Source: a virus. From it: a DNA stretch of 64,000 bases. Below are positions 31,143 through 59,874 of this stretch, in pieces. Each line of letters starts with the position of its first letter. The first letter of the stretch is position 1. The stretch covers positions 186,001-250,000 of IMG/VR virus record IMGVR_UViG_3300046660_000716. One strand, written 5' to 3'. The notes under the pieces are model-generated. The model ran no database searches and was not told the DNA's origin. It was given only the letters and a program-made list of their open reading frames with translations. The translations under genes and the position numbers were made by a program.

Positions 31143-31439
31143 GTGGAACTCATCGACGAAGAATCGCAGTGCATCGAGATGGGCCTCGAGCCCCTCGAAG
31201 AGGCCGGCGGCCTGGTGTCGTGGCTGAAGCGCCTCGTGCGCGGACGCGACGACGCCCTGCCGGCCGAGCTGACGGCCGAGGTCGGCAAGATCAAGACCAA
31301 GGCCGAGAAGGACAAAGCGCTGGAGGAGGTCGACGGGTACATCTCGAAGACCGCCGACAGCAAGGACAGCGCCGTACGCATGTACGCCGTGAAACTCAAG
31401 GGGGTGCGCGCCAAGATCGCCGCGCTCTCCGTCAAGTAA
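31143..31439 (+). CDS. Paralog family member A, tagged small protein (98 aa)
   Basis: GTG 31143 preceded by AAGGAG. The leader contains 'CIEMGLEPLEEAGGLVSWLK', with a Leu-Glu-Glu/Ala-Gly-Gly junction near residue 20 that fits the T4-type prohead protease rule (L/I-x-E, cut after E). Then 'LPAELTAEVGKIKTK', a helical 'EEVDGYI' segment, and the C-terminal block 'YAVKLKGVRAKIAALSVK'. This is the shortest member, with no insert between the shared blocks. Paralogs are at 31449, 36656 and 39953. Inferred internal head protein. Confidence 0.75.
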   Translation: MELIDEESQCIEMGLEPLEEAGGLVSWLKRLVRGRDDALPAELTAEVGKIKTKAEKDKALEEVDGYISKTADSKDSAVRMYAVKLKGVRAKIAALSVK

Positions 31440-31448
31440 GGAGCTAGC

Positions 31449-31985
31449 ATGGACCACGCAGCAATCAACGAAGCCGCGGAATGCATCGGCCTGGGCATCG
31501 ATCCGGACAACGAAATGCTGGACGAGATCGACGCACTGGACGAGGCCGGCGGAATCGTATCCTGGCTGGCGCGCGCCTACACGGGCAAGGACAAGGACCT
31601 GCCCGCCGAGATCGAGAAGGAGCTGGAGAGCATCAAGACGAAGGAAGCCAAGGAGAAGATGCTGGCGGACATCGACGACTTCATCAAGGAGGCCGAGGCG
31701 TCCGCCGCCACGAACGCGATGGACAAGCGGGCTCCCAACGACCTCGGCAAGGGCTTCGCCATGCCCGGCAGCGAGAAGTACAAGGCTCGTATGGCCTGGA
31801 TGCGCAAGAACGCGCACACCAACGCGCTGGGCGTCGGGCACGGCCAGTACGGCCACCACCTCGCGGCGGGCGCGGTCGGCAACATCGTCAAGCGCATCAA
31901 TGCCCTCGACGGAACGATCGACAAGTACATCGCCGAGCTGAAGAAGGTCCGCGCCAAGGTGGCGGCCCACAAGGTGGAGGGCTAA
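31449..31985 (+). CDS. Paralog family member B with soluble insert (178 aa)
   Basis: GGAG before ATG. Leader longer than in the other members, with 'ECIGLGIDPD' and then 'DALDEAGGIVSWLAR' (possible cleavage after Glu of LDE). Shared blocks 'LPAEIEKELESIKTKEAKEK' and 'YIAELKKVRAKVAAHKVEG' flank a unique hydrophilic insert of about 75 residues rich in His, Lys and Gly. It lies nine bases from member A. Confidence 0.75.
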   Translation: MDHAAINEAAECIGLGIDPDNEMLDEIDALDEAGGIVSWLARAYTGKDKDLPAEIEKELESIKTKEAKEKMLADIDDFIKEAEASAATNAMDKRAPNDLGKGFAMPGSEKYKARMAWMRKNAHTNALGVGHGQYGHHLAAGAVGNIVKRINALDGTIDKYIAELKKVRAKVAAHKVEG

Positions 31986-31988
31986 CCC

Positions 31989-32873
31989 GTGAACATGACC
32001 GGCATCCCAGTAATCGGCGCTCTCATCGAGCGCCTCCGTCGCCGCTCTGACCACGAGAGCGTCAAAGCCGCAATGGCTTCGCGCGGCGACGTCACCCGCG
32101 TCGAGGGCTACGCCAAGATGTCCGAGTGCCTGGACCGCCTCAGCATGCTCGACGCCGGCTCCGGCTCGCTCGGCAAGCCGCTGACCGTCGCCAAGCGCGT
32201 GCGCGCCGTGCTGATCAAGCAGAAGCCGGCGTTCACCCAGGCGTTCAACCCGTCCGGCAGCGAGGCGACCCGCCTCATCTACGCCAACGCGGTGGCCGGC
32301 CTGTGGCACGTCACCTCGCTGCTGTGCGCCGAGGGCGTGACCTTCATGAAGGGCGGCGACGGCACCTACGGCCCGATCGTGAACCGCGGCGCGGTGGACG
32401 GCATGGCCGGCTCCGTGGTGGTCACCCGCCTGGAGAAGTTCGCAGACGCGGCCGAGAAGTACGGCTTCGACCAGGTCGTCACGGAGACGGCCCAGATGGT
32501 CGAGAACGAGACCATGCACGAGGCGATCCCGTTCATCGTCGGCGCGGGCCTGGCCGTGACCGGCCTCGCCGCGATGCTGCTGGTCGCGCGCGACCTGGCC
32601 GAGAAGTTCTACTCGCTCCGCGGCACGTTCTCGCGCTGGCTCGAGGTCCAGGCCCGCTTCCTGGACATGAACGCAGCGACGCTCAACCGCGACGCGTCCC
32701 GCAACAAGCAGAGCGAGTACGCCGAGAAGCTGCGCGCCCTGGCGGACCGCATCAAGGTGGACGATGCGGACACCGAGAAGGACGCGAATGCGGCCATTCG
32801 CCAGGACGACAAGGAACTCGCGGCGGCCCAGACCGGCGCCGCGCCGAGCTCCGCCGGATCCCGGCTGCTCTAA
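31989..32873 (+). CDS. Membrane-segment protein in internal-protein cassette (294 aa)
   Basis: GTG 31989 (ATG 31995 possible), just after GGAGG. Helical N-terminal region; one strong hydrophobic span 'IPFIVGAGLAVTGLAAMLLV' near residues 180-200; then a charged, coiled-coil-like C-terminus ending in a disordered Ala/Ser tail. No obvious targeting leader. Context suggests it is made and possibly packaged with its tagged neighbours. Function unknown. Confidence 0.7.
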   Translation: MNMTGIPVIGALIERLRRRSDHESVKAAMASRGDVTRVEGYAKMSECLDRLSMLDAGSGSLGKPLTVAKRVRAVLIKQKPAFTQAFNPSGSEATRLIYANAVAGLWHVTSLLCAEGVTFMKGGDGTYGPIVNRGAVDGMAGSVVVTRLEKFADAAEKYGFDQVVTETAQMVENETMHEAIPFIVGAGLAVTGLAAMLLVARDLAEKFYSLRGTFSRWLEVQARFLDMNAATLNRDASRNKQSEYAEKLRALADRIKVDDADTEKDANAAIRQDDKELAAAQTGAAPSSAGSRLL

Positions 32874-32875
32874 AC

Positions 32876-32925
32876 ATGCGCGGACCATGATTCCCTACTA
32901 ACAGGGGGATAGCGGGTCTGCGCAT
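32876..32925 (+). other. Long intergenic hairpin
   Basis: Eleven-base-pair outer stem (one G-T wobble) joining 32876-32886 to 32915-32925, with a smaller inner stem TCCCT / AGGGG around a six-base loop. No T-run follows directly. It could be a terminator, processing site or small structured RNA between 31989 and 33027 genes. Confidence 0.45.
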
Positions 32926-33026
32926 TCAACGGAGTCGGGCGCAGGTCGGCCCCGCGTCCGTCATCCGTCGCTAGCACACACAACTCCCATTTTTTTCACC
33001 TCCCAAGTTCGAACTAAGGAGCATCC

Positions 33027-34010
33027 ATGATTCTCGAAAATTACAACCCGGCCGCCATCGCCAGCGAAGAGCTGGTCGAGTCCGCAGACTTCGCGGGCGA
33101 CACCGGCGAGTTCGCAGAGCTGACCGTCGCCGGTCTGAGCGAAATGCACAACCTGACCATCGCTCTGGCTCGCTTCGAGCACAAAGCGCTGACCGAAGGC
33201 ACCGACGAATCGAAAACCTTGATCGAAGCCGCCGTCGGCGAGTTCTTCGCCAAGGCAGCCGAGACCGTCAAGAAGTGGTGGGCATCGTTCATCGCTTGGC
33301 TGGGCTCCATGTGGACCCGCATGAAGGACGCCTTCGTCAAGCGCGAAGAGTGGCTGGGCCGCAACAAGTCGGCAATCAGCGGCGCGACCGCCGAGCAGCT
33401 GAAGGACATCAAAGCCTCGATCGGCTCGGAAGTCCTGAACACCAACTTCGCCGATGTCGCCTCGAAGGCCATCAACGAAGCCAAGGCAGTCATCGCTGCA
33501 GCCGGCAAGACCACCGCCGCCGAAGGCAAGTCCTTCAAAGAGCGCGCCCAGGAAGCCATCACCAAGCACCTGGCCAAGCGCGATGCGAAGAACTCGATCG
33601 GCAAGAACGTCCACGACAGCCTGATCGGCGAGTCGAAGGAAGTCGAAGTCAACTCCGGCCTGGTCGGTAAGCTGATCTCGACCGCAGAAGCCACCTTCAA
33701 GGCAGTCGGCCAAATCGGCGGCGCCAAGATGGTTGCCGACGCAGCCGTGAAAGAAGCCGAAGGTCTGGCCCACGTCACCGGCGGCGACAAAGCTGACATC
33801 AACGCACGCATCAGCGCGCTGCGCGACGTCGGCCACCTGGTCCAGGCGACCATCTCGGCCCACGCTTCGGCCATCAGCACCGCCAACGGCCAGGTCATGC
33901 CTGTGCTGGTGCGCATCGCTGGCGCCGCTGGCAAGAAGGAAAAGGAGCCTAAAGCCGCTCCTGCAGCAGCGACCAACGAAAGCGGCTCGCTGCTGGACGC
34001 TTACCTGTAA
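33027..34010 (+). CDS. Probable abundant internal head protein with amphipathic Trp-rich helix (327 aa)
   Basis: Strong AAGGAG before ATG 33027. The N-terminus has several L-x-E sites suited to prohead-protease cleavage: 'SEELVESADFAG' (after residue 18), 'ALTEGTDES' (57) and 'TLIEAAVGEF' (67). Residues 75-110 form a Trp/Phe-rich amphipathic helix, 'KKWWASFIAWLGSMWTRMKD'. The rest is Ala/Lys-rich helix. Codons favour GAA, GCA and AAA more than neighbours, suggesting high expression. Similar layout to the 480- and 234-residue proteins at 37922 and 40548. Confidence 0.75.
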   Translation: MILENYNPAAIASEELVESADFAGDTGEFAELTVAGLSEMHNLTIALARFEHKALTEGTDESKTLIEAAVGEFFAKAAETVKKWWASFIAWLGSMWTRMKDAFVKREEWLGRNKSAISGATAEQLKDIKASIGSEVLNTNFADVASKAINEAKAVIAAAGKTTAAEGKSFKERAQEAITKHLAKRDAKNSIGKNVHDSLIGESKEVEVNSGLVGKLISTAEATFKAVGQIGGAKMVADAAVKEAEGLAHVTGGDKADINARISALRDVGHLVQATISAHASAISTANGQVMPVLVRIAGAAGKKEKEPKAAPAAATNESGSLLDAYL

Positions 34011-34038
34011 TACGCCCCCGGGCGTGAGCAGGCTGATT

Positions 34039-34064
34039 GCCCCTACCCCTCGCGGGGTAGGGGC
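34039..34064. terminator. Bidirectional terminator
   Basis: Stem GCCCCTACCCC / GGGGTAGGGGC between the convergent genes ending at 34010 and 34069; a short T-run follows on the plus strand. Confidence 0.75.
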
Positions 34065-34068
34065 TTTC

Positions 34069-35382
34069 TCACTGCGCCCGCGCCGCGGAGGGCACGAGGA
34101 TGCAGTTCACGTCGACGGCGCATGTCTCCTGCGCGCCCGGGGCCTTGGTCAGCACGGCCTCGAAGGCGGTGATCCTCCAGCGCCCCTCCATCTCGGCGCT
34201 GGTGGGCTTGTCCGTCACCAGGGTCCACTGCAGGACGGGCGTGAACGCGTCCAGGTCGCACGAGCTGAAGAACACAGAGGCCGGCGAGTACTGCTCCCGG
34301 GCCTCGATCCGCATCCGCTCCACGGTCAGCGGGTTGTCGTACGTCTGCCAGGCCACGCGCTCCTTCTTGACGTCGCTGACGCCGGACTGGTCGTCCTGCA
34401 CCAGGCTCTTGCAGTTGCTGCCCGATCGCTCGTCGGCCGTGGACCGCACCAGCTTCACCCGCTCGCCCTCCACCTCGCGGCGGGCGGGGCCGTCCACTGC
34501 AGCGGCGATCCGGCGGGACGTGCGGAGACGGAACGTGCGGGTGTCTGGGTCGTAGGCGGACCCGCTGCCGCTCGACGCCGGGCCGGCCTCCTCCGGCCCG
34601 AGGTACTCGATCGTCACAGCCGTCGCTTCGTCCTTGTCGACAACCGTGGACTTGGTTGAGCTGAGGATGTAGCCCTCGTTCACGTCCAGGAAGATCGACA
34701 GGCGCCCCGCGTACAGGCCGTAGACGCGGTCCACGTGCCGCACGGCCGCCACGTAGCTCAGCGGCGGCACGAACACCGTCTCGTAGACCTTCGGGTTGTC
34801 CGACGGGGCCATGAAGAAGCGGTACGGGATGTCGGTCGGCGCGTTGTCGGCGGTCAGGGACGCCACGATGCTGGTCATCGCCGCGTCGTGGTAGGCGCCG
34901 TTGTTGACCTTCTTGTTGATCTCCAGAGCGTTCACCGGGGCGAGCTCCATCTTGAACAGCACGCTCGGCGTGTTCATCGCCGAGTCGGAGGCCTGGCCGT
35001 CCGGCACGTGCGGAGGGGCGCCGTCGCAGACCATGATCTGGAACGGGGCGTCGCGCAGGTACGTCTCGCCGGTGTCGGTCTCCACCGTGCCGGACGTGTC
35101 GTCGGCGGAGGCCCCCGACGCCGTGAAGCGACCCAGCGTGATGTACACCTTGGCCGAGCGCCACGCCGCCTGGATCTTCAGGGCGTTCACCACCGAGACG
35201 GCGACCGTCAGCCGGTAGTACGGCATGACGTGCTCGTCGTACTTCTTCACGATCCTGAGCTCCGTCATGAAGTCCGACAGGTCGATGGTGTCTTCCTCCT
35301 CGCCGTCCTTCGGGATCAGCTTGACCACGGCGCCGTAGCGCGTATGCTCGAAGTCGCTGATGTCGGATGAAATGGTGGTCAT
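34069..35382 (-). CDS. Putative baseplate hub or tail structural protein (437 aa)
   Basis: N-terminal 'TIDLSDFMTELRIVKKYDEH' and 'YYRLTVAVSVVNALKIQ' resemble the opening of gp27/gpD-type hub domains, and 'HVDRVYGLYAGRLSIFLD' has the aromatic pattern seen in their second domain. Beta-rich overall. It is the last gene of the long minus-strand block. Family assignment is tentative. Confidence 0.45.
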   Translation of the reverse strand: MTTISSDISDFEHTRYGAVVKLIPKDGEEEDTIDLSDFMTELRIVKKYDEHVMPYYRLTVAVSVVNALKIQAAWRSAKVYITLGRFTASGASADDTSGTVETDTGETYLRDAPFQIMVCDGAPPHVPDGQASDSAMNTPSVLFKMELAPVNALEINKKVNNGAYHDAAMTSIVASLTADNAPTDIPYRFFMAPSDNPKVYETVFVPPLSYVAAVRHVDRVYGLYAGRLSIFLDVNEGYILSSTKSTVVDKDEATAVTIEYLGPEEAGPASSGSGSAYDPDTRTFRLRTSRRIAAAVDGPARREVEGERVKLVRSTADERSGSNCKSLVQDDQSGVSDVKKERVAWQTYDNPLTVERMRIEAREQYSPASVFFSSCDLDAFTPVLQWTLVTDKPTSAEMEGRWRITAFEAVLTKAPGAQETCAVDVNCILVPSAARAQ

Positions 35383-35415
35383 GTTGGTCCGATCGGAAAA
35401 AAATTTGGGAGGGAG

Positions 35416-35436
35416 GGGAGGGCGCGATGCCCTCCC
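35416..35436 (-). terminator. Rho-independent terminator (minus strand)
   Basis: Stem GGGAGGGC / GCCCTCCC with a five-base loop just after the 35443 stop; reading leftward a T-run appears at 35405-35399. It separates the 383-residue gene from the hub-like gene. Confidence 0.6.
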
Positions 35437-35442
35437 GTTCCG

Positions 35443-36588
35443 CTAGTAGCCTTCCCCGGCGTAGAGCAGCTCCAGGGAGAGCCGGCCCTCGAAGAAGGTT
35501 GCGTTGGTCTTCTCGATCTCAGCCAGCCCGCTGCGGTTGATCAGCTGGGTGTCGATCTCGGACATCGCGCTGGATGGGATGGTCGAGGCGTAGTCCTGGT
35601 GAACCAGGAGCTTCCAGGCCAGCGCGGCGGCCTCGTTCTTGCCCTCGTCCAGCCCGCCCTCCTCGGACAGTGCGGCGAGATTGGGCGACCCGCCTGGCAT
35701 CCGGCCGAGCCCGACCTGCTTGGCGATGTGCTTGGCCGCCTTGGACATCCCGAACTTCGGGATGCCGGGAACGCCGAGGTCGTCCTCCCCGGCCATCGCC
35801 AGGGTGTAGAGGTAGTGGCCGGGCTCCAGCTGCGCGGCGACCTCCTCGCCGGTCTTGGTCTCGCGGAGTGCCTCGCTCATGATGGTGTCCCGCGTTATCA
35901 GCCGCGAGTGGTCGCCGGACGCGCGCAGGACGGCCCACTGGTAGCCCTCGTTGCCGCTGTTGCCCGGTCCCAGGGCGTACTGCAGGTCGGCCGCCCACGA
36001 GCTCAGGACGATCGCGCTGCCGTTCAGCCGCCCCTCGGAGGCCAGCGCCCAGGGCCACGGCTCGGGGTCCACGGCCCCGGTGTCGACGAGGTGGAGGTGC
36101 GGGATGAACTGGGCGACCTTCTTGGCCGTCTCCAGGTTGAAGTTCACGTAGTTGCGTATTACGTCGAATTCGGGGCCGGCGCCGCCGATGCGCTTGGCGT
36201 ACATGTTGGACTTGAAGTCCGGGTTGAGCGCGAGCTTCTCCTCGCACTTCTCGGACGAGTAGTACATGATCACGGTCGTGCGGCGGCCGTAGTGCTTGAA
36301 CGCGAAGTTCCGGTAGTGCCCGCCCACGTTGAGGAGCTCGGCCGCCAGCTGGCGGGGGTGGCGGTTGAACTCGCCGCGCGTCAGCTTGGCCACCGCGTGC
36401 TCGCTGAAGAGCTGGCGGAGGATGGTGTTCAGGTTGACGAAGAAGTACAGCTCGTTTTCGGGATTCTGCGCGCTGATGAACTCACCGAGGACGTCGTGGA
36501 GGATCTCGTACCTCGGGCGGCGGAGTCCGATGAGCGGCCCGAGAGCAGAATCGCTCTCGGGCACACCGTAATTGCGGCTCGATGACAT
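35443..36588 (-). CDS. Unknown protein (381 aa) with RBS in a hairpin
   Basis: Start placed at ATG 36588 (second Met) because AGGGA lies six bases upstream; ATG 36594 is too close to it. Mixed alpha/beta composition with 'YGRRTTVIMYYSSEKCEEK' and 'AKKVAQFIPHLHLVDTG'. No membrane span or targeting leader. A strong inverted repeat overlaps its ribosome binding site. Function unknown. Confidence 0.65.
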   Translation of the reverse strand: MSSSRNYGVPESDSALGPLIGLRRPRYEILHDVLGEFISAQNPENELYFFVNLNTILRQLFSEHAVAKLTRGEFNRHPRQLAAELLNVGGHYRNFAFKHYGRRTTVIMYYSSEKCEEKLALNPDFKSNMYAKRIGGAGPEFDVIRNYVNFNLETAKKVAQFIPHLHLVDTGAVDPEPWPWALASEGRLNGSAIVLSSWAADLQYALGPGNSGNEGYQWAVLRASGDHSRLITRDTIMSEALRETKTGEEVAAQLEPGHYLYTLAMAGEDDLGVPGIPKFGMSKAAKHIAKQVGLGRMPGGSPNLAALSEEGGLDEGKNEAAALAWKLLVHQDYASTIPSSAMSEIDTQLINRSGLAEIEKTNATFFEGRLSLELLYAGEGY

Positions 36589-36591
36589 TTT

Positions 36592-36624
36592 CATTCCCTG
36601 TATCTCGTTGATGACAGGGGAATG
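36592..36624 (-). promoter_or_regulatory. Inverted repeat sequestering RBS/start of the 35443 gene
   Basis: CATTCCCCTG and CAGGGAATG pair around a 14-base loop in the mRNA. The downstream arm contains the ribosome binding site and the first ATG, so the hairpin could block translation or bind a regulator. Confidence 0.5.
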
Positions 36625-36655
36625 TTAATGGTGCACGATTAGCGTTTCACTTCGC

Positions 36656-37042
36656 TTACTTGTCTTCGATCTTGATCGCATTGACGCGCGCTTCGAGTTT
36701 GTCCATCGCTTTGATGTACTCTTCGGTCGTGCCGTTGTTCTTCTTGATCAGGCGCCCGACGATCCCCAGCACGACCCACATCGGTCCGATCAAGAAGGCG
36801 GCCAGCTGACCCCCCGTCAGGGTCTTCGCTTGCTTCCTGAACTTGGCGATGTCGGCCAAAATACGATCCTTGTCCTTCTCGGTGCGGATCTTCTTGATCT
36901 CTGCCTCGATGTCGTCCGGCAGGCTGGTGTCCGAGCCGCTCAACCAGCGCGTCAGCCAGGATACCAGGCCGCCGGCCTCTTCCAGGTTTTCCATGTCGAT
37001 CGCGTCGGCGCCCTCGGTGAAGACGATGTTAGTATCCAGCAT
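36656..37042 (-). CDS. Paralog family member C with membrane insert (128 aa)
   Basis: AGGAG before ATG 37042. Leader ends 'AIDMENLEEAGGLVSWLTRW' (possible cleavage after residue 22). Shared middle 'LPDDIEAEIKKIRTEKDKD' and C-terminal block 'YIKAMDKLEARVNAIKIEDK' flank an insert with one likely membrane segment, 'AAFLIGPMWVVLGIVGRLI'. Opposite strand from members A and B. Confidence 0.75.
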   Translation of the reverse strand: MLDTNIVFTEGADAIDMENLEEAGGLVSWLTRWLSGSDTSLPDDIEAEIKKIRTEKDKDRILADIAKFRKQAKTLTGGQLAAFLIGPMWVVLGIVGRLIKKNNGTTEEYIKAMDKLEARVNAIKIEDK

Positions 37043-37084
37043 TGCGTGCTCCTGATTGTCGTGTTACGTGGTTGTTGGAATGGG

Positions 37085-37918
37085 TCAGGTGAAGAACACG
37101 TCGTCGCCCACGACGACGGCCTCCCCCAGGGCGCCCTTTGGAAGGATGGCCTTCCAGAACACGCCGCCGAAGGCATTGTTGAGCACGTGGATCAGGATGG
37201 CGATCACGTAGGTCGCGCGACCGGCCTCGTCCTTGCTTTCGCCGGACAGCACGCCCTTCTGGTAGCCCCACTTCTGGAGCGCGCCAAGGAACTGGTGAAA
37301 CACCGCCAGCGTGCCGCGGATGGCGACCGCGACGCCCAGCTTGATCCCGGCCTTCAGCATCATGCTGACGTAAGAGGTGAACTCGTACGTGTTGATGAGC
37401 ATGGTCAAGGAAGCCAAACCCTCGCCCTGCTTCAGCGCCTGGCGGCGGGCGCTCTCCTCGACGATCGGGGCCACGAAGACCGAAGTGACCATCATGGCTG
37501 CCTGCGGACCGAGAAACACGGAGAACAGTGTCATGGCGAACGTGTTGACGATCAGGATCAGGAGGAACAGCATCAGGCCAGCGCTGAACTCGTTGCCGTC
37601 CGAGATGCCGTTGTACATGGTCACGAAGGTCTTCACAAAGCTCTCGTGCATGATGCCGGCCACCTGCCCGATGTCCGCCTTCGGATCTGAAAGCAGGGGC
37701 GCGACGGTCGTCGCCAGGCCGGAGGCAGCCGCGCGGCACTTGGTCAGCATCTCCTCCACGTGAAAGCCGGCCGCCTTGAGCGCAGCTTTGGCTTCCTCCA
37801 TGCAGGAGTTCATGCTAGCCTCGGCCGCCTCCACGCCGGCCTTCGAGCTCACCATCTCCATAAGGAGGCCCACGTTGACGCCCTCGATCAGGGCGGCCTG
37901 TTCAGCGGTGATGATCAT
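37085..37918 (-). CDS. CPBP/CAAX-type intramembrane protease homolog, possibly head-packaged (277 aa)
   Basis: Several membrane spans. Motifs of the CPBP (ABI, CAAX) family are in order: 'APIVEESARRQAL' gives EExxxR (Glu154, Glu155, Arg159); 'AVFHQFLGAL' gives a His (208) in a predicted membrane helix; 'AILIHVLNNAFGG' gives HxxxN (His244, Asn248). These residues form the metal site of such proteases. The first 12 residues end in 'AALIEGVNVG', a possible L-I-E/G prohead cleavage site. Sits between tagged cassette genes. Membrane cleavage of host proteins at infection is inference. Confidence 0.65.
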   Translation of the reverse strand: MIITAEQAALIEGVNVGLLMEMVSSKAGVEAAEASMNSCMEEAKAALKAAGFHVEEMLTKCRAAASGLATTVAPLLSDPKADIGQVAGIMHESFVKTFVTMYNGISDGNEFSAGLMLFLLILIVNTFAMTLFSVFLGPQAAMMVTSVFVAPIVEESARRQALKQGEGLASLTMLINTYEFTSYVSMMLKAGIKLGVAVAIRGTLAVFHQFLGALQKWGYQKGVLSGESKDEAGRATYVIAILIHVLNNAFGGVFWKAILPKGALGEAVVVGDDVFFT

Positions 37919-37921
37919 GGG

Positions 37922-39364
37922 CTAGTACTCCGCTTCCGAGGTGGCGGCCTTGTCGAGCAGGTCCCGGACCTTGGCCTTCAGCTGGTCGACGTTCTGGTTG
38001 TACTCGTCGTTGTCCCACTTCTTCGACAGCACCTTGTCGCGCAGGGCCGCCAGCTCGCGGATGGCCTCGCCGGTGCGCACGCTCATCTCCTTCGCGGCGT
38101 CGTCGCTGCCGGTGGCGCGCTGGAACCACGCCGCGCTGTCGTGGACGAACGCCTGGAACTTCGACGGACTGTGGCGGATCTGGACGAGACGCTCCAGCAA
38201 GCGCACGATCTTGGTGATGACCAGGCGCTGCTGCTCGGGGGTGGAGATGTCCTTGGCCTCGGCGGCCAGCTCCTTGATCTCCTTCTCCATGTTGCCGGTC
38301 GCCAGGTTCTTGACGAAGGAACCCAGACCCTCGTGCAGGTACTCCTTCGACTCGCTGTAGGCGATGCGGAGCGCGTCGGGGTTCACCTCGCGGGCCTCGA
38401 CATCGATGCCCTTGTCCGACACGGCCCGCAGGCAGGTCATCATGAACACGGACACGTCCTGGTAGCCTGCTACGGTGCCGCGCACAAGCGCGTTGTGGAA
38501 CTGCACCACGTCGTTGCCCGCACCGCGCAGCTTGTCGACGACGCTCTGCGGGTTGCTGAAGCGCTGGCGGTTGGACTTCAGGCGCGACTTGAGCTCCATG
38601 AACATGCCGGCGATCTTCTCGCCCGGCTGACCCTTCTGCAGCTCGTCCATGTCCTTGGTGATCATGGCGATCTTCAGCACGGCGGACTGGTAGGCTGCCG
38701 AGGTGATCTTCTGCTCGGCTGTCTGCCCCAGGTACCAGTACTCCTTGCCTTTCTCGTTCAGGGTGTCTGAGTCGTAGCCGCCCTTGTTCGCGGTGCGGTT
38801 CATGATCTCGCGCACGGTCTTCTGGAAACTGACGATGGGGTGGCCGAAGCTCATGAAGGCGGTCTCTGCCTTCCAGAGGGTCACGAACGCTTCCTCGTAG
38901 TCCTTGACCGCCGCACCCGCCATTGTGGCGCCGCACATGACGTGCACGTCAAACGCGCGGTGGTCGGTCGGATGCACGAAGCCGGGCTTGCGCAGCAGCT
39001 GGCCGCACGTCATGCCAGGCTCCTCGGAGCGGTCCACTGCGGCCGCGCCCAGTCCGTCGGCGGCGCGGTGGAACATCGAGCGGTCCACACCCTGGGCCTC
39101 GGCCGCCGGGATCTTGGAGTTGTACTTGCCGCGCAGCATGTCCCAGGCGCGGCGCAGGAAGGCCACGACCTTGCGGACGAACTCCTTCAGCCACTGGATG
39201 ATGTGGTCGATGAGCTCGCCGATGGCGAACTCGTTCAGCACGGTGTTCTCGGTCAGGCGGCTGAAGAGGTCGTCGTACTCGCGGCGGGCGGACTCGCAGA
39301 TGGCGTCGATGCCGGCCAGGATCTCGGAGTCGTTCTCGCTCAGCTGGGTGAGGGTCAGGATCAT
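37922..39364 (-). CDS. Helical protein with amphipathic helix and leader-like N-terminus (480 aa)
   Basis: Leader contains 'AGIDAICESARREYDD' (possible I-C-E/S cut after residue 24) and further L-S-E, L-T-E and I-G-E sites. Residues 47-80 form an amphipathic, Trp/Phe-rich basic helix, 'IIQWLKEFVRKVVAFLRRAW'. The rest is long charged helix. Three bases separate it from the protease-like gene downstream. Architecture resembles the 33027 and 40548 proteins. Inferred internal head protein. Confidence 0.7.
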   Translation of the reverse strand: MILTLTQLSENDSEILAGIDAICESARREYDDLFSRLTENTVLNEFAIGELIDHIIQWLKEFVRKVVAFLRRAWDMLRGKYNSKIPAAEAQGVDRSMFHRAADGLGAAAVDRSEEPGMTCGQLLRKPGFVHPTDHRAFDVHVMCGATMAGAAVKDYEEAFVTLWKAETAFMSFGHPIVSFQKTVREIMNRTANKGGYDSDTLNEKGKEYWYLGQTAEQKITSAAYQSAVLKIAMITKDMDELQKGQPGEKIAGMFMELKSRLKSNRQRFSNPQSVVDKLRGAGNDVVQFHNALVRGTVAGYQDVSVFMMTCLRAVSDKGIDVEAREVNPDALRIAYSESKEYLHEGLGSFVKNLATGNMEKEIKELAAEAKDISTPEQQRLVITKIVRLLERLVQIRHSPSKFQAFVHDSAAWFQRATGSDDAAKEMSVRTGEAIRELAALRDKVLSKKWDNDEYNQNVDQLKAKVRDLLDKAATSEAEY

Positions 39365-39388
39365 GTCGATCTTTCTTGTTGGTTTACG

Positions 39389-39949
39389 TTAGAGGCCGAG
39401 CGCGACCTCGTCGTCCGTGGCCTCCGCGATGGCGCGCTGCTTCACGCTGCCGATCTTGGTCACCAGGTAGTCATGCAGGCGGCCGGACGCCACGAGCTTG
39501 GCCCTGCGGCGCTTGCAGACGCCCTGCGGCGTGGCCATGGCCGGCACGGTGAACGCGCGGCGCAGACCGGCGATGACGCACGCCTGCTCGACGAATTCGG
39601 AGCAGAAGCGAGCCTCGTCGGACTGGATCGGCATGCCCAGGGCGATGCCGATGGTGCCGCGGTAGGAGAAGCGGAAGCCGGACTTGGACATCTCCGTCAC
39701 GAACTTGCGAGCCGAGGCGAGACCGGCCGGCTCGACTTCGACCTCATAGAGCTCGAACTCGGTCCAGGATGGCCACTCTTCCTTGGTCTCGCGGACGAAG
39801 CCGTCCTTGCCCATGTTGAACGAGTAGCACTCGGCCAGGCCGGGGTCGAACGAGATCGAGGCGTGGTTGAATCGCTCGCCGGTGATGGCGGTGATGATGT
39901 GCGAGACGGGCTTCTTCGTGTTGGTGGCGAGGAGGTAGATGCTCGCCAT
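39389..39949 (-). CDS. YiiX/NlpC-P60-like (permuted papain fold) hydrolase with C-terminal tag (186 aa)
   Basis: Residue pattern of circularly permuted NlpC/P60 enzymes: His29 in 'FNHASISFD', then aromatic strands 'ECYSF' and 'FELYEVEVEPAG', and Cys116 in 'ARFCSEFVEQACVIAG', where YiiX-type proteins have a catalytic 'CSExV'. Such enzymes cut amide or ester bonds in peptidoglycan peptides, lipids or proteins. The C-terminus 'AIAEATDDEVALGL' has an I-A-E/A cleavage-like site and the ELGL-type tag also seen at 41275 and 59515. Suggests packaging in the head via a C-terminal signal. Confidence 0.65.
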   Translation of the reverse strand: MASIYLLATNTKKPVSHIITAITGERFNHASISFDPGLAECYSFNMGKDGFVRETKEEWPSWTEFELYEVEVEPAGLASARKFVTEMSKSGFRFSYRGTIGIALGMPIQSDEARFCSEFVEQACVIAGLRRAFTVPAMATPQGVCKRRRAKLVASGRLHDYLVTKIGSVKQRAIAEATDDEVALGL

Positions 39950-39952
39950 GGC

Positions 39953-40537
39953 TCACTCCACCTTCATCGCTGCCACGTCGTCGCGCACAAGCTGCAGGGC
40001 GGCCACGTACTTGTCGAGCGAGCCCGAGTAGCGGTTGACCGTCTTCAGCGTGATGGCGATGATGCCCAGCGAGATGGCGCCGATCGTCAGGCCCTGGACG
40101 GTGCCGTTCACGATCGTGCCGAACTGGGACGCCTTGTTGGCGGCGTCGGCCAGCTTCTGCTTGGTCTTGCGGAAGAAGATGTCCTTGACGACGGGCGCAT
40201 GCATGCCGGAGGCGGACACCGCTCCGGCCGCCGCGCCGAGGATCGCTCCGGCCGCGCCGCCGACGGTGCCGATCCCCAGCGAGTTGAGCGCGTCGCCGAG
40301 CAGGCCGTTCTTCTCGGCCATGCGCGCCTCATCGAGGAAGTCGTCAATCTCGTCCAGCGCGCGGCGCTTGTCGTCCTTGGTCTTGATCCGCGCCATCTGC
40401 TCGCGGAGCTCGTTCACCAGCGCGTTGTCGACGTTGCTGAAGGCGCGCTTGATCCAGGAGATCACGCCGCCGGCCTCTTCGAGCGGCACCAGGCCCATCT
40501 CGATGCAGGCGTCCTCTTCCAGGATTTCGTTTGCCAT
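39953..40537 (-). CDS. Paralog family member D with glycine-zipper and membrane insert (194 aa)
   Basis: Leader 'CIEMGLVPLEEAGGVISWIK' is almost identical to member A. Shared middle 'LVNELREQMARIKTKDDKR' and end 'YVAALQLVRDDVAAMKVE'. The insert of about 110 residues has a Gly/Ala-rich zipper, 'GGAAGAILGAAAGAVSASG', and a membrane-like span, 'LTIGAISLGIIAITL'. Overlaps neither neighbour but is separated from both by ten bases or fewer. Confidence 0.75.
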   Translation of the reverse strand: MANEILEEDACIEMGLVPLEEAGGVISWIKRAFSNVDNALVNELREQMARIKTKDDKRRALDEIDDFLDEARMAEKNGLLGDALNSLGIGTVGGAAGAILGAAAGAVSASGMHAPVVKDIFFRKTKQKLADAANKASQFGTIVNGTVQGLTIGAISLGIIAITLKTVNRYSGSLDKYVAALQLVRDDVAAMKVE

Positions 40538-40547
40538 GTGCTGCTCC

Positions 40548-41252
40548 TTATTCGGTCGCGTTGGCGAGGTTGTCGTCCGCCTGCATGGCGGCGGCCAGGA
40601 TCCCGCGGTACGCCTGCATCGCGGTGCTGATGAGGCTAAGGTACGTGCGCTCCACGTCGCTGTAAACGCTCGGTACGGCAGCGCGCAGGTTGGACTTCTC
40701 GACGAAGCCGGTCGTCTGATCGACTATCGCCTCGATCTTCTCCCATCCGTCGTGCGCCTTGTCCAGCACGTTCCCCAGCCGATGCCTGTAGCTGGCGCGC
40801 CCCGTCGGCGTGACGATCGTGGTCGGGATCGGGCGCGCGAAGCGCTCGATCGACAGCGTGATCTCCGTGCGGGCGCGTGCGAGGCCCGCCACGTCGCGAT
40901 TCACCAGCTGCGAGGTGGCCTGGACGGCCCATTTCTGAATTGCCTCGAACACGCGCACCAGGTTGGTGACGTTGTCCGACATCACGACCGGATCCGGCAT
41001 GCGTGCTTCGCCGGGGGCGGTGGCATCCTTCTCGGCCGCGGCTGCCTCATCGGGCGCAGCGCGCTTGCGGCGCATGATCATGTCGACGATGCGCTTCATG
41101 AAGTTGACGATGCTCCGCCAGACGGCGTGGATCATGTCGCCGGCCGAGCTGGCTTGGGCTTCGACCAGCGCGACGTTGAAGTCGTCGAGCAGGGAGGACA
41201 GCGTGTCCTGCTCGTACAGGCCGAGCTCCATGTAGGTTTCTTGGATCAGCAT
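40548..41252 (-). CDS. Tagged helical protein with amphipathic segment (234 aa)
   Basis: N-terminus 'ETYMELGLYEQ' carries the ELGL-type tag and 'NVALVEAQASSAGD' a possible L-V-E/A cut after residue 31. Next comes an amphipathic basic helix, 'VWRSIVNFMKRIVDMIMRRK', then a disordered Ala/Glu linker and a helical domain. Fits the same plan as the 33027 and 37922 proteins. Inferred internal head protein. Confidence 0.7.
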   Translation of the reverse strand: MLIQETYMELGLYEQDTLSSLLDDFNVALVEAQASSAGDMIHAVWRSIVNFMKRIVDMIMRRKRAAPDEAAAAEKDATAPGEARMPDPVVMSDNVTNLVRVFEAIQKWAVQATSQLVNRDVAGLARARTEITLSIERFARPIPTTIVTPTGRASYRHRLGNVLDKAHDGWEKIEAIVDQTTGFVEKSNLRAAVPSVYSDVERTYLSLISTAMQAYRGILAAAMQADDNLANATE

Positions 41253-41274
41253 TTGGCGCTTTCTTGATTTGTGA

Positions 41275-41733
41275 TTAGAGCCCGAGCTCGATCTCCGCGG
41301 CCTCGTAGACCTGGATCTGGGCCGGGTAGACGGCGACGAGCTTGCCGCCCTTCTGCGACTCGGTCTTGGCCGGCGCGTCGCCGCGCGGCTTGGTCTCCGG
41401 GTCGGTGATGGATGTCTCAGGGCGGCGATCGATCTGCACGTCCATGTTGCCGCCGGAGAGGGTCTGCTGCGTGACCTGCGTGGCGCCGTCGCCGCCGGCG
41501 TCCGTCACGAGCAGGGTGATGTGGCTGGCCTCGTGCACGACCTTCGCCGTGGCGTCGGCATCGGCGTTCTTGGCGTGCTTGCCGAAGATGACCCACGCCT
41601 TCGCGTACAGGATGCGCGCCCAGTTCTGGCCGTAGCGCTTCTTGAACTCCGGCTTGTTCTTGAGGATCCATTCCTCAGCTCCCGGTGCGTCCGGCGCGGC
41701 CTCCAGCAACTGCTGGATGTTAGCGGCGATCAT
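41275..41733 (-). CDS. Doubly tagged small protein (152 aa)
   Basis: N-terminus 'NIQQLLEAAPDAPG' offers an L-L-E/A cut after residue 11; the C-terminus 'QVYEAAEIELGL' repeats the tag at the other end. The middle has a basic aromatic segment, 'WARILYAKAWVIFGKHAK', and a hydrophilic Thr/Asp/Pro-rich linker. ATG overlaps the upstream stop (ATGA). No family recognised. Confidence 0.7.
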   Translation of the reverse strand: MIAANIQQLLEAAPDAPGAEEWILKNKPEFKKRYGQNWARILYAKAWVIFGKHAKNADADATAKVVHEASHITLLVTDAGGDGATQVTQQTLSGGNMDVQIDRRPETSITDPETKPRGDAPAKTESQKGGKLVAVYPAQIQVYEAAEIELGL

Positions 41734-42014
41734 GACGTCGAGCTGATGAACTCGAGCTTCTCGGCCGGGATGGCCTCCGGCTCGGGGTAGAACTTCGTCG
41801 CGGCGCGGTGCGTGTAGGCGGCGTAGCCGACCTTCTCACCCTTCTTGTCCTCGAAGTACATGACGGTGCAGTCCAGTTTGGCCTGCGGCACCTTGAGGCG
41901 GCCGGACTCCTCGCGGGTCAGGCTGCGCCGCTTGTACTTGTCCCACCAGGCCGCTTCGGTGAGGGATTCCAGGTCGGCCTCGATGGCTGACTCGACCAGC
42001 AGTTCGTTGTCCAT
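41730..42014 (-). CDS. Small tagged protein (94 aa)
   Basis: Leader 'LLVESAIEADLESLTEAAWW' includes L-V-E/S and L-T-E/A sites, the latter after residue 20, like the paralog leaders. The mature part is a small basic/aromatic domain. Translationally coupled with the 41275 gene. Function unknown. Confidence 0.7.
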   Translation of the reverse strand: MDNELLVESAIEADLESLTEAAWWDKYKRRSLTREESGRLKVPQAKLDCTVMYFEDKKGEKVGYAAYTHRAATKFYPEPEAIPAEKLEFISSTS

Positions 42015-45460: not shown

Positions 45461-47275
45461 ATGAACGACAAGCTCAGCATTCGCCCGGCAGCGGGCAGCC
45501 ACCTCGAAGCCGCTACCACCCTGGTAGCGCAGCACAATGCAAACAAGGCTGCGGACGAGGTGGCAGCGGCGCCGCTGCCGAAGATCACCAAGCCTGCGTT
45601 CGAGGGTCCACGCAGCAACGTGGTGGCCGGCGACGCGCACGCGGTGGCGATCCGCTCGGCGCTGAACACGATCGCTCGCATCGTGGGTCGCACCCTCGGC
45701 CCGCATGGCTCGAACACCCTGGTCCGCTCCGAGAGCGGCTCGCACTTCGCGACCAAGGATGGCTACACCGTCTTGCAACGCACCACGTTCGTGCAGGAGA
45801 TCGCCACGATGGTCCTGGACCACGTGCGCTCGGTCAGCCGCACCATGGTGCGCAAGGTTGGCGACGGCTCCACCAGCGCGGTCGTCATGGCGGACTCCCT
45901 GTACGACACCATCATCGACACCTCGGTGCTGCGCGACTTTCCGCCCGGCGCCGTCCAGGCCGTGCTGTCGGCCATCGCCGACGTCCTGGTGGAGAAGATC
46001 CGCGAGCGCGGCACCAGCGCCATCTGCGCGGCCGATCTGCTGACCGTGGCGACCATCTCCGCCAACAACGATCCGGCCATCGGCGCCCTGATCGCCAACG
46101 CCTACGAGGCGGGCGGCGAGGAAGCCAATGTATTCGCCGAGATCGGCACGGGCGACCGCACCGTCGTGCGCAAGGAGCCGGGCTACCGCGTCATGCGCGG
46201 CATGGTCCACGAGGCGTTCGCCAACGAGGTCAGCGCCGAGGGCAGCCGCGCCACGCGCTGCCGCCTGCACGACGTCCGCGTCCTGATCTACGACGGCACC
46301 GTGGACCAGTCCACGTTCAACACGCAGATCGCCCCGGTCATGAACGGCTGCATCGAGCTCGGCGTCGCGTTCGCGCTGGTCGCGCGCGACTACGGCGACG
46401 ACGTGGTGAAGATCGTCGCCGAGTTCATGCGCAAGAGCCCCGGCATCAAGCTGGTCATGCTCGACCACGCCGGCGCCACCCGCCGCGGCATGGCTCGCAT
46501 GGGCGACCTCGCGGCCGTGCTGGGCACGACCGTCGTCATGCCGGGCACCAAGATCGACGAGGACCGCCTGGGCTTCGCGGCCGAGGTGCGCTCCGGCCCG
46601 AGCGACACGGTGTTCGTGCTGGCGGGCCAAGGCACGGACGTGGCCGAGCGCGTGGCTCAGCTGCGCGAGCAGGCCGACCGCATGGACATGAACAACCACG
46701 ACGAGACCCAGGCCGACGAGATCGCAGAGCTGCGCGCCCGCATCCGCGCCATGCTGGGAAGCGAGGTCACGATCTCGGTCGGCGGCGCCACCGAGCAGGA
46801 GAAGCAGGCCCTGCACTACCTGATCGAAGACTCGATCCTGGCCGTGCGCGCCGCGAACCGCTCCGGTGTGGTCGAGGGCCTGGGCATGACGGCGCAGCGC
46901 GTGCTGGCGGACAGCTCGTCCGACGTGGCCGTCGAGAGCCTGAAGATCGCCGCGACCCGCACCTCGCTGGGAATGGGCCGCCTATCGGGCCTGGTAGCAC
47001 ACATGATGGTGGCCGTCCAGGCAGCATACCTCGCGGCCTCCTCCAAGGTGCTGGAGAACGCGCACCTGGATGCCGGCGAAATCATCGGCACCTGCCTGCG
47101 CGACGGGAAGTGCTTCGACGTGATGACCGGCGAGTACACGGTCGGCGCCACCGTTCTCGCCCCCACGGACACCGACGTGGAGGTCCTGCGCGGCGCCATG
47201 TCCATCGTGAGCCTGCTCGTCAGCAGCAACCAGACCGTCCTGATCCGTCCATCGGCCGGCCTGGGACTCGACTAA
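45461..47275 (+). CDS. groEL: Phage-encoded GroEL-like chaperonin (group I)
   Basis: 604 residues, ATG after AGGGA. Core motifs of GroEL are present: 'RIVGRTLGPHGSNTLV', 'FATKDGYTVL' (Asp100, equivalent to E. coli Asp52), 'KVGDGSTSAVVMADS' (Asp135, equivalent to Asp87), 'LIEDSILAVRAANRSGVVEG' (Asp equivalent to 398) and a C-terminal equatorial segment. All three ATPase Asp residues are kept. It has about 47 extra N-terminal residues and lacks the GGM-rich tail. No GroES gene is nearby, as reported for chaperonins of some giant phages, which may work alone or with host GroES. Likely folds phage proteins. Confidence 0.88.
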   Translation: MNDKLSIRPAAGSHLEAATTLVAQHNANKAADEVAAAPLPKITKPAFEGPRSNVVAGDAHAVAIRSALNTIARIVGRTLGPHGSNTLVRSESGSHFATKDGYTVLQRTTFVQEIATMVLDHVRSVSRTMVRKVGDGSTSAVVMADSLYDTIIDTSVLRDFPPGAVQAVLSAIADVLVEKIRERGTSAICAADLLTVATISANNDPAIGALIANAYEAGGEEANVFAEIGTGDRTVVRKEPGYRVMRGMVHEAFANEVSAEGSRATRCRLHDVRVLIYDGTVDQSTFNTQIAPVMNGCIELGVAFALVARDYGDDVVKIVAEFMRKSPGIKLVMLDHAGATRRGMARMGDLAAVLGTTVVMPGTKIDEDRLGFAAEVRSGPSDTVFVLAGQGTDVAERVAQLREQADRMDMNNHDETQADEIAELRARIRAMLGSEVTISVGGATEQEKQALHYLIEDSILAVRAANRSGVVEGLGMTAQRVLADSSSDVAVESLKIAATRTSLGMGRLSGLVAHMMVAVQAAYLAASSKVLENAHLDAGEIIGTCLRDGKCFDVMTGEYTVGATVLAPTDTDVEVLRGAMSIVSLLVSSNQTVLIRPSAGLGLD

Positions 47276-56945: not shown

Positions 56946-56990
56946 GCCCATGCCCGCGGAGGGCATGGGCACTTCGTCTTTTTTTTTTAC
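56946..56990. terminator. Strong bidirectional terminator
   Basis: GCCCATGCCC / GGGCATGGGC core, extended by an outer AAGACG / CGTCTT pairing, with a ten-T run at 56979-56988. Lies between convergent genes ending at 56935 and 56987. Confidence 0.85.
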
Positions 56991-58255
56991 AGCTCGCGGC
57001 AGTACTTCGACATGTCGATGCGCGTGCGCTTCAGGCTGGAGTCGTGGAACGCCTTCAGGCTCGCGTTCATCAGGGTTGTCCCGATGCGGCCGGCGATCAG
57101 GCCGATGTTGGTCACCCCCATGCGGTGGTGCAGGGTGCCCGCGCAGCGGCTGCAGATGCCCCCGCTCGTGTCCCCGCAGTACATCGGGGAGCGGAACTGG
57201 AGCGTCTTGCCCTTCAGCCCGGCAAGATCGTCAGGCATGATCTCGCGCAGCTTCCCGCCCTCCAGGTAGAACCGGAAGAGGTACTCGCGGGGGGAGTCCA
57301 CCGTCACGCGCAGGTAGCGCGCGCTGCGGCAGTCGCTCTTCGCGTCCTCGTTGAGGCGCAGGCCCTGGAACGCGGCGTTCAGCTGCTTGGCGATGTAGCC
57401 GCCCTGGGCGGTCATCATCGAGCGACCGTAGGACGCCTGCACGATCAGGTCGGCGTAGGCCGGCATCTCGTCGACCGGAATGCCGTCTTCGAGCGACGCT
57501 GTGGAGACGGTGATCTGCGACGGATCGTCCGACTTGCGCATCGCGCCGCGCATGAGCGCCGTGTTCTTGTAGTTGTTGCCCACGGAGCCGCGCGCGCCGG
57601 ACGCGAAGATGTCGAAGCCGGGGTCCTTGCCGTCGAGCTGGCCCTTGGCCGATGCCACGAGCTCCTTCTCCACGGCCCCCAGCTCGCCCAGGTCGCCCTC
57701 GCGGAGCCTCTTGCCGCGCTCGCTCGCCAGGATCTCCTTCTTCAGGCGCTTCGTCACCGGGTCGATGCGGATGGTGTCGATCGTCATGGACGGAGCAATG
57801 AAGCTGGTCGGGGCGTAGCCGAGCCACTGCATGTAGTCGATCAGGTACGCCTGGTCCTCGAACGTGATCTTGCCGGCGAGCCGCATGTCGATGGCGCGCT
57901 GCTGGATCTCGCCGACCGTCTTGTCGTCCCACGGCCTGTCGTAGTAGGGGAACGCCTCGCGCAGCGCCCTGGAGCGCGAGAAGACGAGGTTGTTGGCCAC
58001 GTAGCGGCCCACGGTCGTGCTGCGGATCGAACCCCAGTTCGGTGCCCAGCGCACGTCCCACTCGCCCTCGGCGCGCTCGCCCGGCGGCGGCCGGCGGAAC
58101 TCGTCCGGCACGTCCACGGTGGACTCGTGCGGGTACCGCGGGGTGGTCTTCTTGGTCGTCGCCAGCCAGTCGCGGAGCAGGTCCAGCGAGTAGGCCGAGG
58201 GCGGCGTGCGCAGCAGCTCCATGGTGGCGATGCCGGGAATCGTCTGTCGGTCCAT
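56987..58255 (-). CDS. RNA polymerase beta' subunit, C-terminal part (split subunit)
   Basis: 422 residues, ATG 58255 overlapping the upstream stop. It matches RpoC from before the bridge helix: 'STTVGRYVANNLVFS', 'FASGARGSVGNNYKNTALMR', the bridge/trigger region 'SYGRSMMTAQGGYIAKQLNA', a zinc site with Cys in 'SDCRSAR' and 'YCGDTSGGICSRCAGT', then 'TNIGLIAGRIGTTLMNASLK' with AFHDS, equivalent to IAAQSIGEPGTQLTMRTFH. The NADFDGD catalytic loop is not in this chain and must be on another ORF. It ends soon after the TFH-like motif, lacking roughly the last 450 residues of bacterial beta'. Confidence 0.85.
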   Translation of the reverse strand: MDRQTIPGIATMELLRTPPSAYSLDLLRDWLATTKKTTPRYPHESTVDVPDEFRRPPPGERAEGEWDVRWAPNWGSIRSTTVGRYVANNLVFSRSRALREAFPYYDRPWDDKTVGEIQQRAIDMRLAGKITFEDQAYLIDYMQWLGYAPTSFIAPSMTIDTIRIDPVTKRLKKEILASERGKRLREGDLGELGAVEKELVASAKGQLDGKDPGFDIFASGARGSVGNNYKNTALMRGAMRKSDDPSQITVSTASLEDGIPVDEMPAYADLIVQASYGRSMMTAQGGYIAKQLNAAFQGLRLNEDAKSDCRSARYLRVTVDSPREYLFRFYLEGGKLREIMPDDLAGLKGKTLQFRSPMYCGDTSGGICSRCAGTLHHRMGVTNIGLIAGRIGTTLMNASLKAFHDSSLKRTRIDMSKYCREL

Positions 58256-59514: not shown

Positions 59515-59874
59515 TCACAGACCGAGATCGATCTCGGCCTCGGTCTGGTCGTCTTCCTCGCTGAGCTTGCGCTTCTTGAGGCTAGCATCGGTCGGCTTCT
59601 CACTGCCGCCGAAGGCGGTCGACGGAAACGGCGCGCTCAGCACCTGCGGCTTGGCGCCACCCTGCACGCCGGCCGCCACTGGAGCGATGCCGGAAATGCT
59701 GGCGTTCTCGGCCATGGCTTTCATCTGGCGGTCCTCTTCCCTACAGACCGGGCACCCGAGGACTCCCAGGGCGCCGCACTTGGCCCGCGCGCCGTCCGGC
59801 CGGGGCCGGAGGTGGCCGTGCCAGTCCGCCGGATTGTCAAAGTCGAGGCCAAGGTTGAGACTCTGCGGACCCAT
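59515..59874 (-). CDS. Tagged small Cys/His protein (119 aa)
   Basis: Residues 15-50 hold 'PADWHGHLRP' and 'KCGALGVLGCPVCREED', a plausible His/Cys metal site. The remainder is disordered and ends 'DDQTEAEIDLGL', the same C-terminal tag as 39389 and 41275. Start uncertain: ATG 59874 has a weak site; ATG near 59731 follows GAGG. Located in the baseplate operon, far from the other tagged genes. Confidence 0.6.
   Translation of the reverse strand: MGPQSLNLGLDFDNPADWHGHLRPRPDGARAKCGALGVLGCPVCREEDRQMKAMAENASISGIAPVAAGVQGGAKPQVLSAPFPSTAFGGSEKPTDASLKKRKLSEEDDQTEAEIDLGL

Follow-up and report, generated by a model that had tools for sequence, protein, structure and literature searches.

A 64,000-bp window of the genome of an uncultivated jumbo phage (bases 186001-250000 of the 259,338-bp IMG/VR virus record IMGVR_UViG_3300046660_000716; 66% GC) harbors, between positions 31143 and 42014, a cassette of genes that very probably encode accessory inner-head (ejection) proteins. 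These proteins bear short removable tags, which would target them to the capsid and be cut off by a prohead protease of the gp21 type. The tags, their sites, the protease, the insertions, the repetition of the tag and its placement at either end of a protein are all present in the sequence, from which we strongly infer packaging into the head and cleavage of the tag. Cassette genes are named here by their first window position, and "record" marks positions in the 259,338-bp record, the rest of which was also covered. A codon-usage script predicted 306 genes, with predicted start codons. All p-values treat proteins as independent. The literature basis was PMC5694885, PMC10052503, PMC9024508, PMC3012670 and PMC7598289. 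In the sites given below, a slash marks the predicted cut.

Leaders and cleavage sites

The initial annotation described at least ten open reading frames (ORFs) with an acidic leader of 10-67 residues and an L/I-x-E site followed by A, G or S. The ten that it listed are all present, with predicted leaders of about 11-67 residues. The motif [LI].E[AGS] was found in the first 35 residues of 10/10 cassette proteins and of 28/295 other predicted proteins (Fisher 3e-10). The first 18 residues are free of K and R in all ten, compared with 56/295 of the others. Since these proteins had originally been chosen by the motif, the enrichment was retested on unselected gene sets defined by position. Seven of the eight consecutive genes from 36656 to 42014 have the motif, compared with 31/298 (p=2e-6), as do nine of all ten inserted genes (p=3e-8) and six of seven when one representative is kept per paralogue family (p=1e-5). 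The sole N-terminus without the motif in the eight-gene block is that of 39389, which has a C-terminal tag instead. Tag-like C-termini were observed three times (39389, 41275 and 59515), compared with 0.12 expected. A loose core, [DE]x(0-2)[LM]G[LI], occurs in 5/11 tagged proteins and in 5/295 others, a pattern that was seen before being tested. Chance, acting through a short motif, a high Glu/Leu/Ala content or start codons misplaced in a GC-rich genome, is a most improbable explanation. About 10% of the other proteins do match the motif, but composition-preserving shuffled N-termini carry it in a mean of 2.4 of 10 rather than ten, and the control motifs [AVG].E[AGS], [LI].D[AGS] and [LI].[QKR][AGS] show no enrichment in the cassette N-termini. 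In addition, the unselected and non-redundant tests remain at 1e-5 or better, and the leaders of paralogues are conserved from their start codons on.

The cassette proteins had been regarded as ten unrelated proteins, which does not hold for 31143, 31449, 36656 and 39953. These form one paralogous family with common ends and differing middles (phmmer 1e-11 to 1e-20; alignment). Their leaders vary in length: that of 31449 has a 10-residue insertion, and that of 36656 no longer has the GL core. Because L-x-E/A-G-G..S-W is invariant across the four aligned paralogues despite the varying leader, the predicted cut position can be fixed in this family with some confidence.

Prohead protease and head proteins

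A gp21-like prohead protease was to be sought in the flanking genome, together with similar sites on capsid and scaffold proteins, and the genome offers both. The gp21-type protease matches Pfam S77 (PF03420) at 6.8e-8, above the cut-off, two PHROG head maturation protease families at about 1e-19 (best 8e-20) and KVP40 gp21 (tblastn, 2e-7). The record of the phiR1-37 major capsid protein (MCP) gives a "mature N-terminus at Ser87", directly after L-Q-E. In the MCP alignment, the Ser87 column reads FRE/S81 in the phage studied here, LQE/S in AR9, LQE/A in BpSp and LME/S in S6, and almost every further relative has hydrophobic-x-E/[SA] there. The [LI]-x-E rule fits this phage because the mapped phiR1-37 MCP start aligns with its F-R-E/S. 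A candidate core protein encoded beside the MCP begins MILTGYVPLNE/A. Candidate sites are also present in the AR9 virion proteins gp152, gp215 and gp114, and FQE/ANVVR of gp152 aligns with LAE/AANIVR of the orthologue in this phage. According to its record, AR9 gp77 is proteolysed and only its RNA polymerase (RNAP) domain is found in virions; its first exon (L018:12476-13747) contains ISE/S (252), IKE/S (265) and LLE/A (273), with RNAP homology from residue 281, a placement in keeping with that entry. The protein of record 159304-159744 has an AR9 relative that is a virion protein, and belongs to a head-and-packaging PHROG.

By its protein sequences, the phage is a deep, GC-rich member of the AR9/PBS1/phiR1-37 clade, a distant jumbo-phage relative. 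Fifty-five proteins match AR9 (tblastn, E<=1e-3), including the MCP (record 147420-149036, 37%), the prohead protease (record 156868-157686, 37%), the tail sheath, the terminase, the DNA polymerase and both multisubunit RNAP gene sets. The named relatives by MCP are AR9/PBS1, BpSp, Listeria LPJP1, phiR1-37 and the Staphylococcus S6 group, each below 40% identity. A nucleotide search of the region against a phage collection gave no match, and single-query IMG/VR searches with the paralogue 39953, the MCP and a GroEL-like protein found no relatives. Fifty-six loci were retrieved when the endonuclease (42016) was used as a three-sequence alignment query.

Insertions in a conserved block

Ten of the eleven cassette genes are inserted into a block that is uninterrupted in related phages. 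The insertion points in this phage are 31143-31985 and 36656-42014. AR9, L029 and L050 have the orthologues of 29326 and 31995 side by side, and the insertion of 31143 and 31449 falls between the orthologues of AR9 gp213 and gp214. Similarly, L029 and L045 have the orthologues of 42016 and 35443 as direct neighbors, and L022 and L028 have a similar compact block without insertions. In several relatives, the locus beside the 42016 endonuclease contains other leader-bearing genes. Homologues of 37085, also with leaders, are found at the same locus in L041 and L044, and homologues of 39389 in L071. Amidase-like genes adjoin leader-bearing genes at the endonuclease locus of two relatives (L030:8609-9304 and L034:8350-9309; by eye).

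Private tags in related phages

Five relatives were analyzed whole (G003, G004, G008, G009 and G010), and three of them have a repeated tag of their own. In G004, 13 proteins from 11 body families have almost the same leader of some 20 residues, ESFI.YCD.M.I..E/, and in most of them the next residue is Gly. One papain/transglutaminase-like protein has the same tag at its very C-terminal end; this copy was absent from the profile training set, yet was the best new hit (E 0.0014). In G003, five proteins with nearly unrelated bodies, one of which has a P-loop, share M.LNE[NK]Q..M....FL, and four of the five end in FL[NT]E/[SG]. In G010 (L122-L135), YLEGYYDALLE occurs in 14 proteins, some with related bodies, at the N-terminus, at the C-terminus, at both or inside, sometimes as tandem copies. 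Nine proteins carry this tag near the N-terminus, 61984, 62535 and 258195 have it at the very C-terminal end, and 139136 and 263761 have a copy at each end. LxE comes after the N-terminal copies, and LTE/D, LEE/S, VNE/S or LNE/S often stands before the C-terminal and internal ones. For the AT-rich genomes G003 and G010, unsupervised N-terminal clustering gave noisy results and was followed up with patterns. The G004 and G010 tags do not recur in the other genomes analyzed, except for one loose pattern match in G009. One leader on unrelated bodies is clear in G004 and G003, and in the phage studied here, beyond the four paralogues, it is limited to the loose core. The leader site also tracks the MCP site, with I-[AV]-x-E and MCP IVKE/S in G004, and LxE and MCP LQE/A in G003. 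G003 has, as a separate expansion, extended tandem arrays of small genes that look paralogous, at about 130552-134900 (L113) and 181285-188250 (L116), with the sequences MTNEEIRKRFEFD... and M..QKWTLKQVLFE....

It is difficult to account for a repeated, removable and end-independent tag except as a targeting signal, and because of the prohead protease the head is its natural target. The head-packaged, protease-matured character suggested by the initial annotation gains support from the protease, from the mapped phiR1-37 MCP site and from these private repeated leaders. We infer the docking, cutting, ejection and function of the tagged proteins as follows. The tag, usually an acidic N-terminal leader of 11-67 residues and sometimes a C-terminal tail, with a core here like x-E-[ML]-G-L, would dock the protein in the prohead core. 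The gp21-type protease would then cut after L/I-x-E on the body side of the tag, removing leader or tail, and the matured protein would remain in the head and be delivered along with the DNA. The pool may turn over by swapping of bodies under a common tag, as in the T-even internal proteins.

Several points weigh against such a system. The phage is uncultivated, and the case for its tags comes from sequence. One strict leader consensus for all proteins of this phage was sought and none was found, unlike in G004 or G010, and the leader core is not recognizable in 37085, in 37922 or at the N-terminus of 41275. The motif is short, as its frequency in other N-termini shows, and QTE/A at 59515 deviates from the [LI]-x-E rule. 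No clear common leader emerged from N-terminal clustering in G008 and G009. Finally, non-virion RNAP subunits of the same phage also match (MDQMME/A and NPLDE/G); these leader-like sites (record 3006 and 176568) were judged to be chance.

The leaders could also steer proteins elsewhere, to the tail or baseplate, the membrane or the replication compartment, with L-x-E as a coincidence or a docking residue. The insertions do lie within a block that holds baseplate and other structural genes, and several members have membrane segments. Such a destination is nevertheless improbable, given that the tag adjoins a site of the MCP type, which comes after N-terminal tags and before C-terminal tags, that this site follows the MCP specificity across phages, and that 33027 and record 159304-159744 both have AR9 relatives among the virion proteins.

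Cassette members and neighboring genes

The proteins considered are listed in Table 1. The initial annotation overlooked 39389-39949, with its C-terminal tag, and the second, C-terminal site of 41275. The span 31143-42014 is not tagged throughout, as 34069-35382 and 35443-36594 are leaderless orthologues of AR9 gp217 and gp219 and fall outside the set. Membrane or amphipathic segments had been noted in several members. Clear membrane segments are present in 36656, 37085 and 39953 and strong amphipathic helices in 33027, 37922, 39953 and 40548, with a weak difference between groups (p=0.035). Elsewhere in the window, 45461-47275 encodes a GroEL-like protein (AR9 gp227) and 56987-58255 the C-terminal subunit of the virion RNAP beta-prime (AR9 gp263, 42%).

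Table 1. Tagged proteins of the window, with predicted leaders, tails and cleavage sites (window positions; aa, amino acids)
Protein	Positions	Strand	Size	Predicted tag, sites and other features
Paralogue 1, AGG-SW family	31143..31439	+	98 aa	leader 1-20 (...IEMGLEPLEE/AGGLVSWLK); phmmer to the other three 5e-14 to 1e-19
Paralogue 2	31449..31985	+	178 aa	leader 1-32; INE/A after residue 8, ALDE/A after residue 32
AR9 gp215-like, probable inner-head protein	33027..34010	+	327 aa	LVE/S (18), LTE/G (57), LIE/A (67)
Paralogue 3	36656..37042	-	128 aa	FTE/G (10), NLEE/A (22); one membrane segment
Polytopic membrane protein, candidate PrsW/CPBP-like intramembrane protease	37085..37918	-	277 aa	LIE/G (12)
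Probable inner-head-like protein	37922..39364	-	480 aa	ICE/S (24); strong amphipathic helix ~47-75, moment 0.75
Candidate YiiX-like permuted papain-fold enzyme	39389..39949	-	186 aa	C-terminal tag IAE176/ATDDEVALGL-end
Paralogue 4	39953..40537	-	194 aa	leader 1-21 (CIEMGLVPLEE/AGGVISWIK); Gly/Ala-rich and membrane segments mid-protein
234-aa protein	40548..41252	-	234 aa	YMELGL core in leader; LVE/A (31), then strong amphipathic helix, moment 0.83
152-aa protein, sites at both ends	41275..41733	-	152 aa	N-terminal LLE/A (11); C-terminal VYE144/AAEIELGL-end
94-aa protein	41730..42014	-	94 aa	LVE/S (8), LTE/A (20); predicted mature start AAWWDKYKRR; phrog_3666 5e-6
69-aa protein, weaker member	59515..59724	-	69 aa	ends QTE/AEIDLGL; P3 = Gln; third C-terminal tag in genome

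Predicted functions of the tagged proteins

Functions could be assigned to few of the tagged proteins, and all are candidates from sequence or structure models. Searches of the cassette proteins in Pfam and PHROGs gave little of significance, PADLOC gave no matches, and tblastn of 33027, 37922 and 39389 against phages found none.

Two members, 33027 and 37922, are probable inner-head proteins by sequence, and we do not take them as members of PF12699 (phiKZ_IP, phiKZ internal head proteins). 33027 occupies the position of AR9 gp215, which is annotated as a virion structural protein, in the order gp213-214-215; phmmer to gp215 is weak (0.008), and a clear orthologue is present in L050 (6e-17). 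An amphipathic Trp-rich helix comes after its leader sites. 33027 itself has no Pfam hit to PF12699, and three members of its family score on this model at 5e-4 to 4e-3, below the Pfam cut-off. The 33027 family aligns with phiKZ gp93-95 over a helical stretch of 76 columns (hhalign E 8e-4, probability 25%), and 37922 with the 33027 family (E 5e-4, probability 32%). A direct relation of 37922 to the phiKZ internal proteins was unsupported, as was homology of the four-paralogue family or of 40548 to the inner-head family (hhalign E ~0.04). No PF12699 match was found in the four-paralogue family.

The membrane protein 37085 is a candidate PrsW/CPBP-like intramembrane protease. It scores 5e-4 on PF13367 (PrsW) and its L041 homologue 2.4e-3, both below the cut-off, and E154, E155, H208 and N248 are invariant in three homologues. 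Its structure model was unusable (predicted local distance difference test score, pLDDT, of 47). For 39389 the model (pLDDT 68) suggests a YiiX-like permuted papain-fold enzyme, as the top five Foldseek hits are all cysteine peptidase 3kw0 or YiiX 2if6 (E 6e-3 to 1.7e-2, prob 0.98-1.00). Conserved Cys and His are present (HA and FCS motifs), and the protein matches phrog_1128 (8.5e-9).

Outside the window, record 90532-91086 (L010:10532-11086) encodes Acb1, an enzyme against the cyclic-oligonucleotide-based antiphage signaling system (CBASS). The match to PF23474 is 2.6e-18 (66.6 bits, cut-off 27) and that to the solved Acb1 9q2g is 9e-11, and both H-x-[ST] motifs are present (HVT and HLS). 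The protein has the acidic leader MIIEDMGLME/A and its gene adjoins a virion RNAP subunit gene. It is possibly a head-packaged anti-CBASS enzyme, which is a lead only, because about one N-terminus in ten matches the motif by chance. If true, CBASS signals could be destroyed as the DNA enters, before any phage gene expression. Record 91090-91437 (L010:11090-11437) encodes a protein of 115 aa with the leader MDLLEPVELME/A, a match to phrog_17560 that begins at residue 11, at the predicted cut, and a ParB-like DGLHR motif (by eye).

The G004 genome harbors a 1647-aa ORF (103522-108465; L071:14563-19506) with two YiiX-like domains, NUDIX, GNAT and an SNF2 helicase; hydrophobic-x-E-[AGS] sites lie in its interdomain gaps. 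It is possibly a virion polyprotein.

The tags may direct proteins to the capsid that act within the head, in the core scaffold, in DNA condensation or in an inner body, rather than as host effectors. This role finds some basis in the resemblance of 33027 and 37922 to AR9 gp215 and phiKZ inner-body proteins, and in the core-like protein beside the MCP, which bears the same type of leader. We consider it rather unlikely for the set, since Acb1, the YiiX-like papain fold, the G003 P-loop protein and the papain/transglutaminase-like protein of G004 look like enzymes without an obvious role in the head, and related phages do without the insertions, which are lineage-specific. Delivery of accessory proteins along with the DNA is preferred. 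The evidence is evenly balanced on a wider proposal, that of a jumbo-phage clade with an end-independent tag system, in which each lineage would use a private tag on 5-14 proteins, release it by a body-side cut next to the tag, and pre-load anti-defense enzymes including Acb1, with a possible virion polyprotein of several enzymes in one relative.

Comparison with known systems

The internal proteins of T4 include anti-defense proteins that can be injected together with the phage DNA. Our results suggest that the logic of these proteins is widespread in AR9-related jumbo phages, with the addition of a tag that is private to a lineage and may stand at either end. They also provide a sequence handle for injected proteins in uncultivated genomes, namely a short peptide repeated on differing bodies beside an MCP-like site, and hence a source of candidate anti-defense proteins.

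The mechanism would be like that of the T4 internal proteins by analogy, and the protease is homologous by ancestry. As here, T4 IPI-III and Alt have diverse bodies and a common short N-terminal leader, which a homologous S77 protease removes by cutting behind hydrophobic-x-E (PMC3012670, PMC5694885). T4 belongs to another phage lineage, whereas here the leaders differ among related phages and tags are also C-terminal or at both ends. Cleavage at either end is known from T4 Alt too, at ITE-6 and LTE-619 (PMC5694885), but the papers cited here gave no case of many proteins with a repeated tag at both termini. In phage P1, a short N-terminal signal sends the antirestriction protein DarB into the head, and 30 residues suffice for a reporter (PMC9024508). 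The likeness is one of description. Unlike the tags described here, the DarB signal does not recur next to a cleavage site.

The inner-body and ejection proteins of phiKZ and SPN3US (PF12699, paralogue family A) are, as here, paralogous, propeptide-bearing and processed by the prohead protease, and the 33027 family scores weakly on PF12699. Most SPN3US propeptides have 111-254 residues and the protease prefers A-x-E (PMC10052503), whereas the leaders of this phage span about 11-67 residues, with [LI]-x-E as the rule. AR9 is without the eight-gene insertion and without the four-paralogue family. With the head proteins of AR9/PBS1 and phiR1-37 (gp95, gp114, gp152, gp165, gp215 and the virion RNAP precursor gp77), this phage shares an orthologous MCP and protease, matching sites, and relatives of 33027 and of the protein of record 159304-159744.

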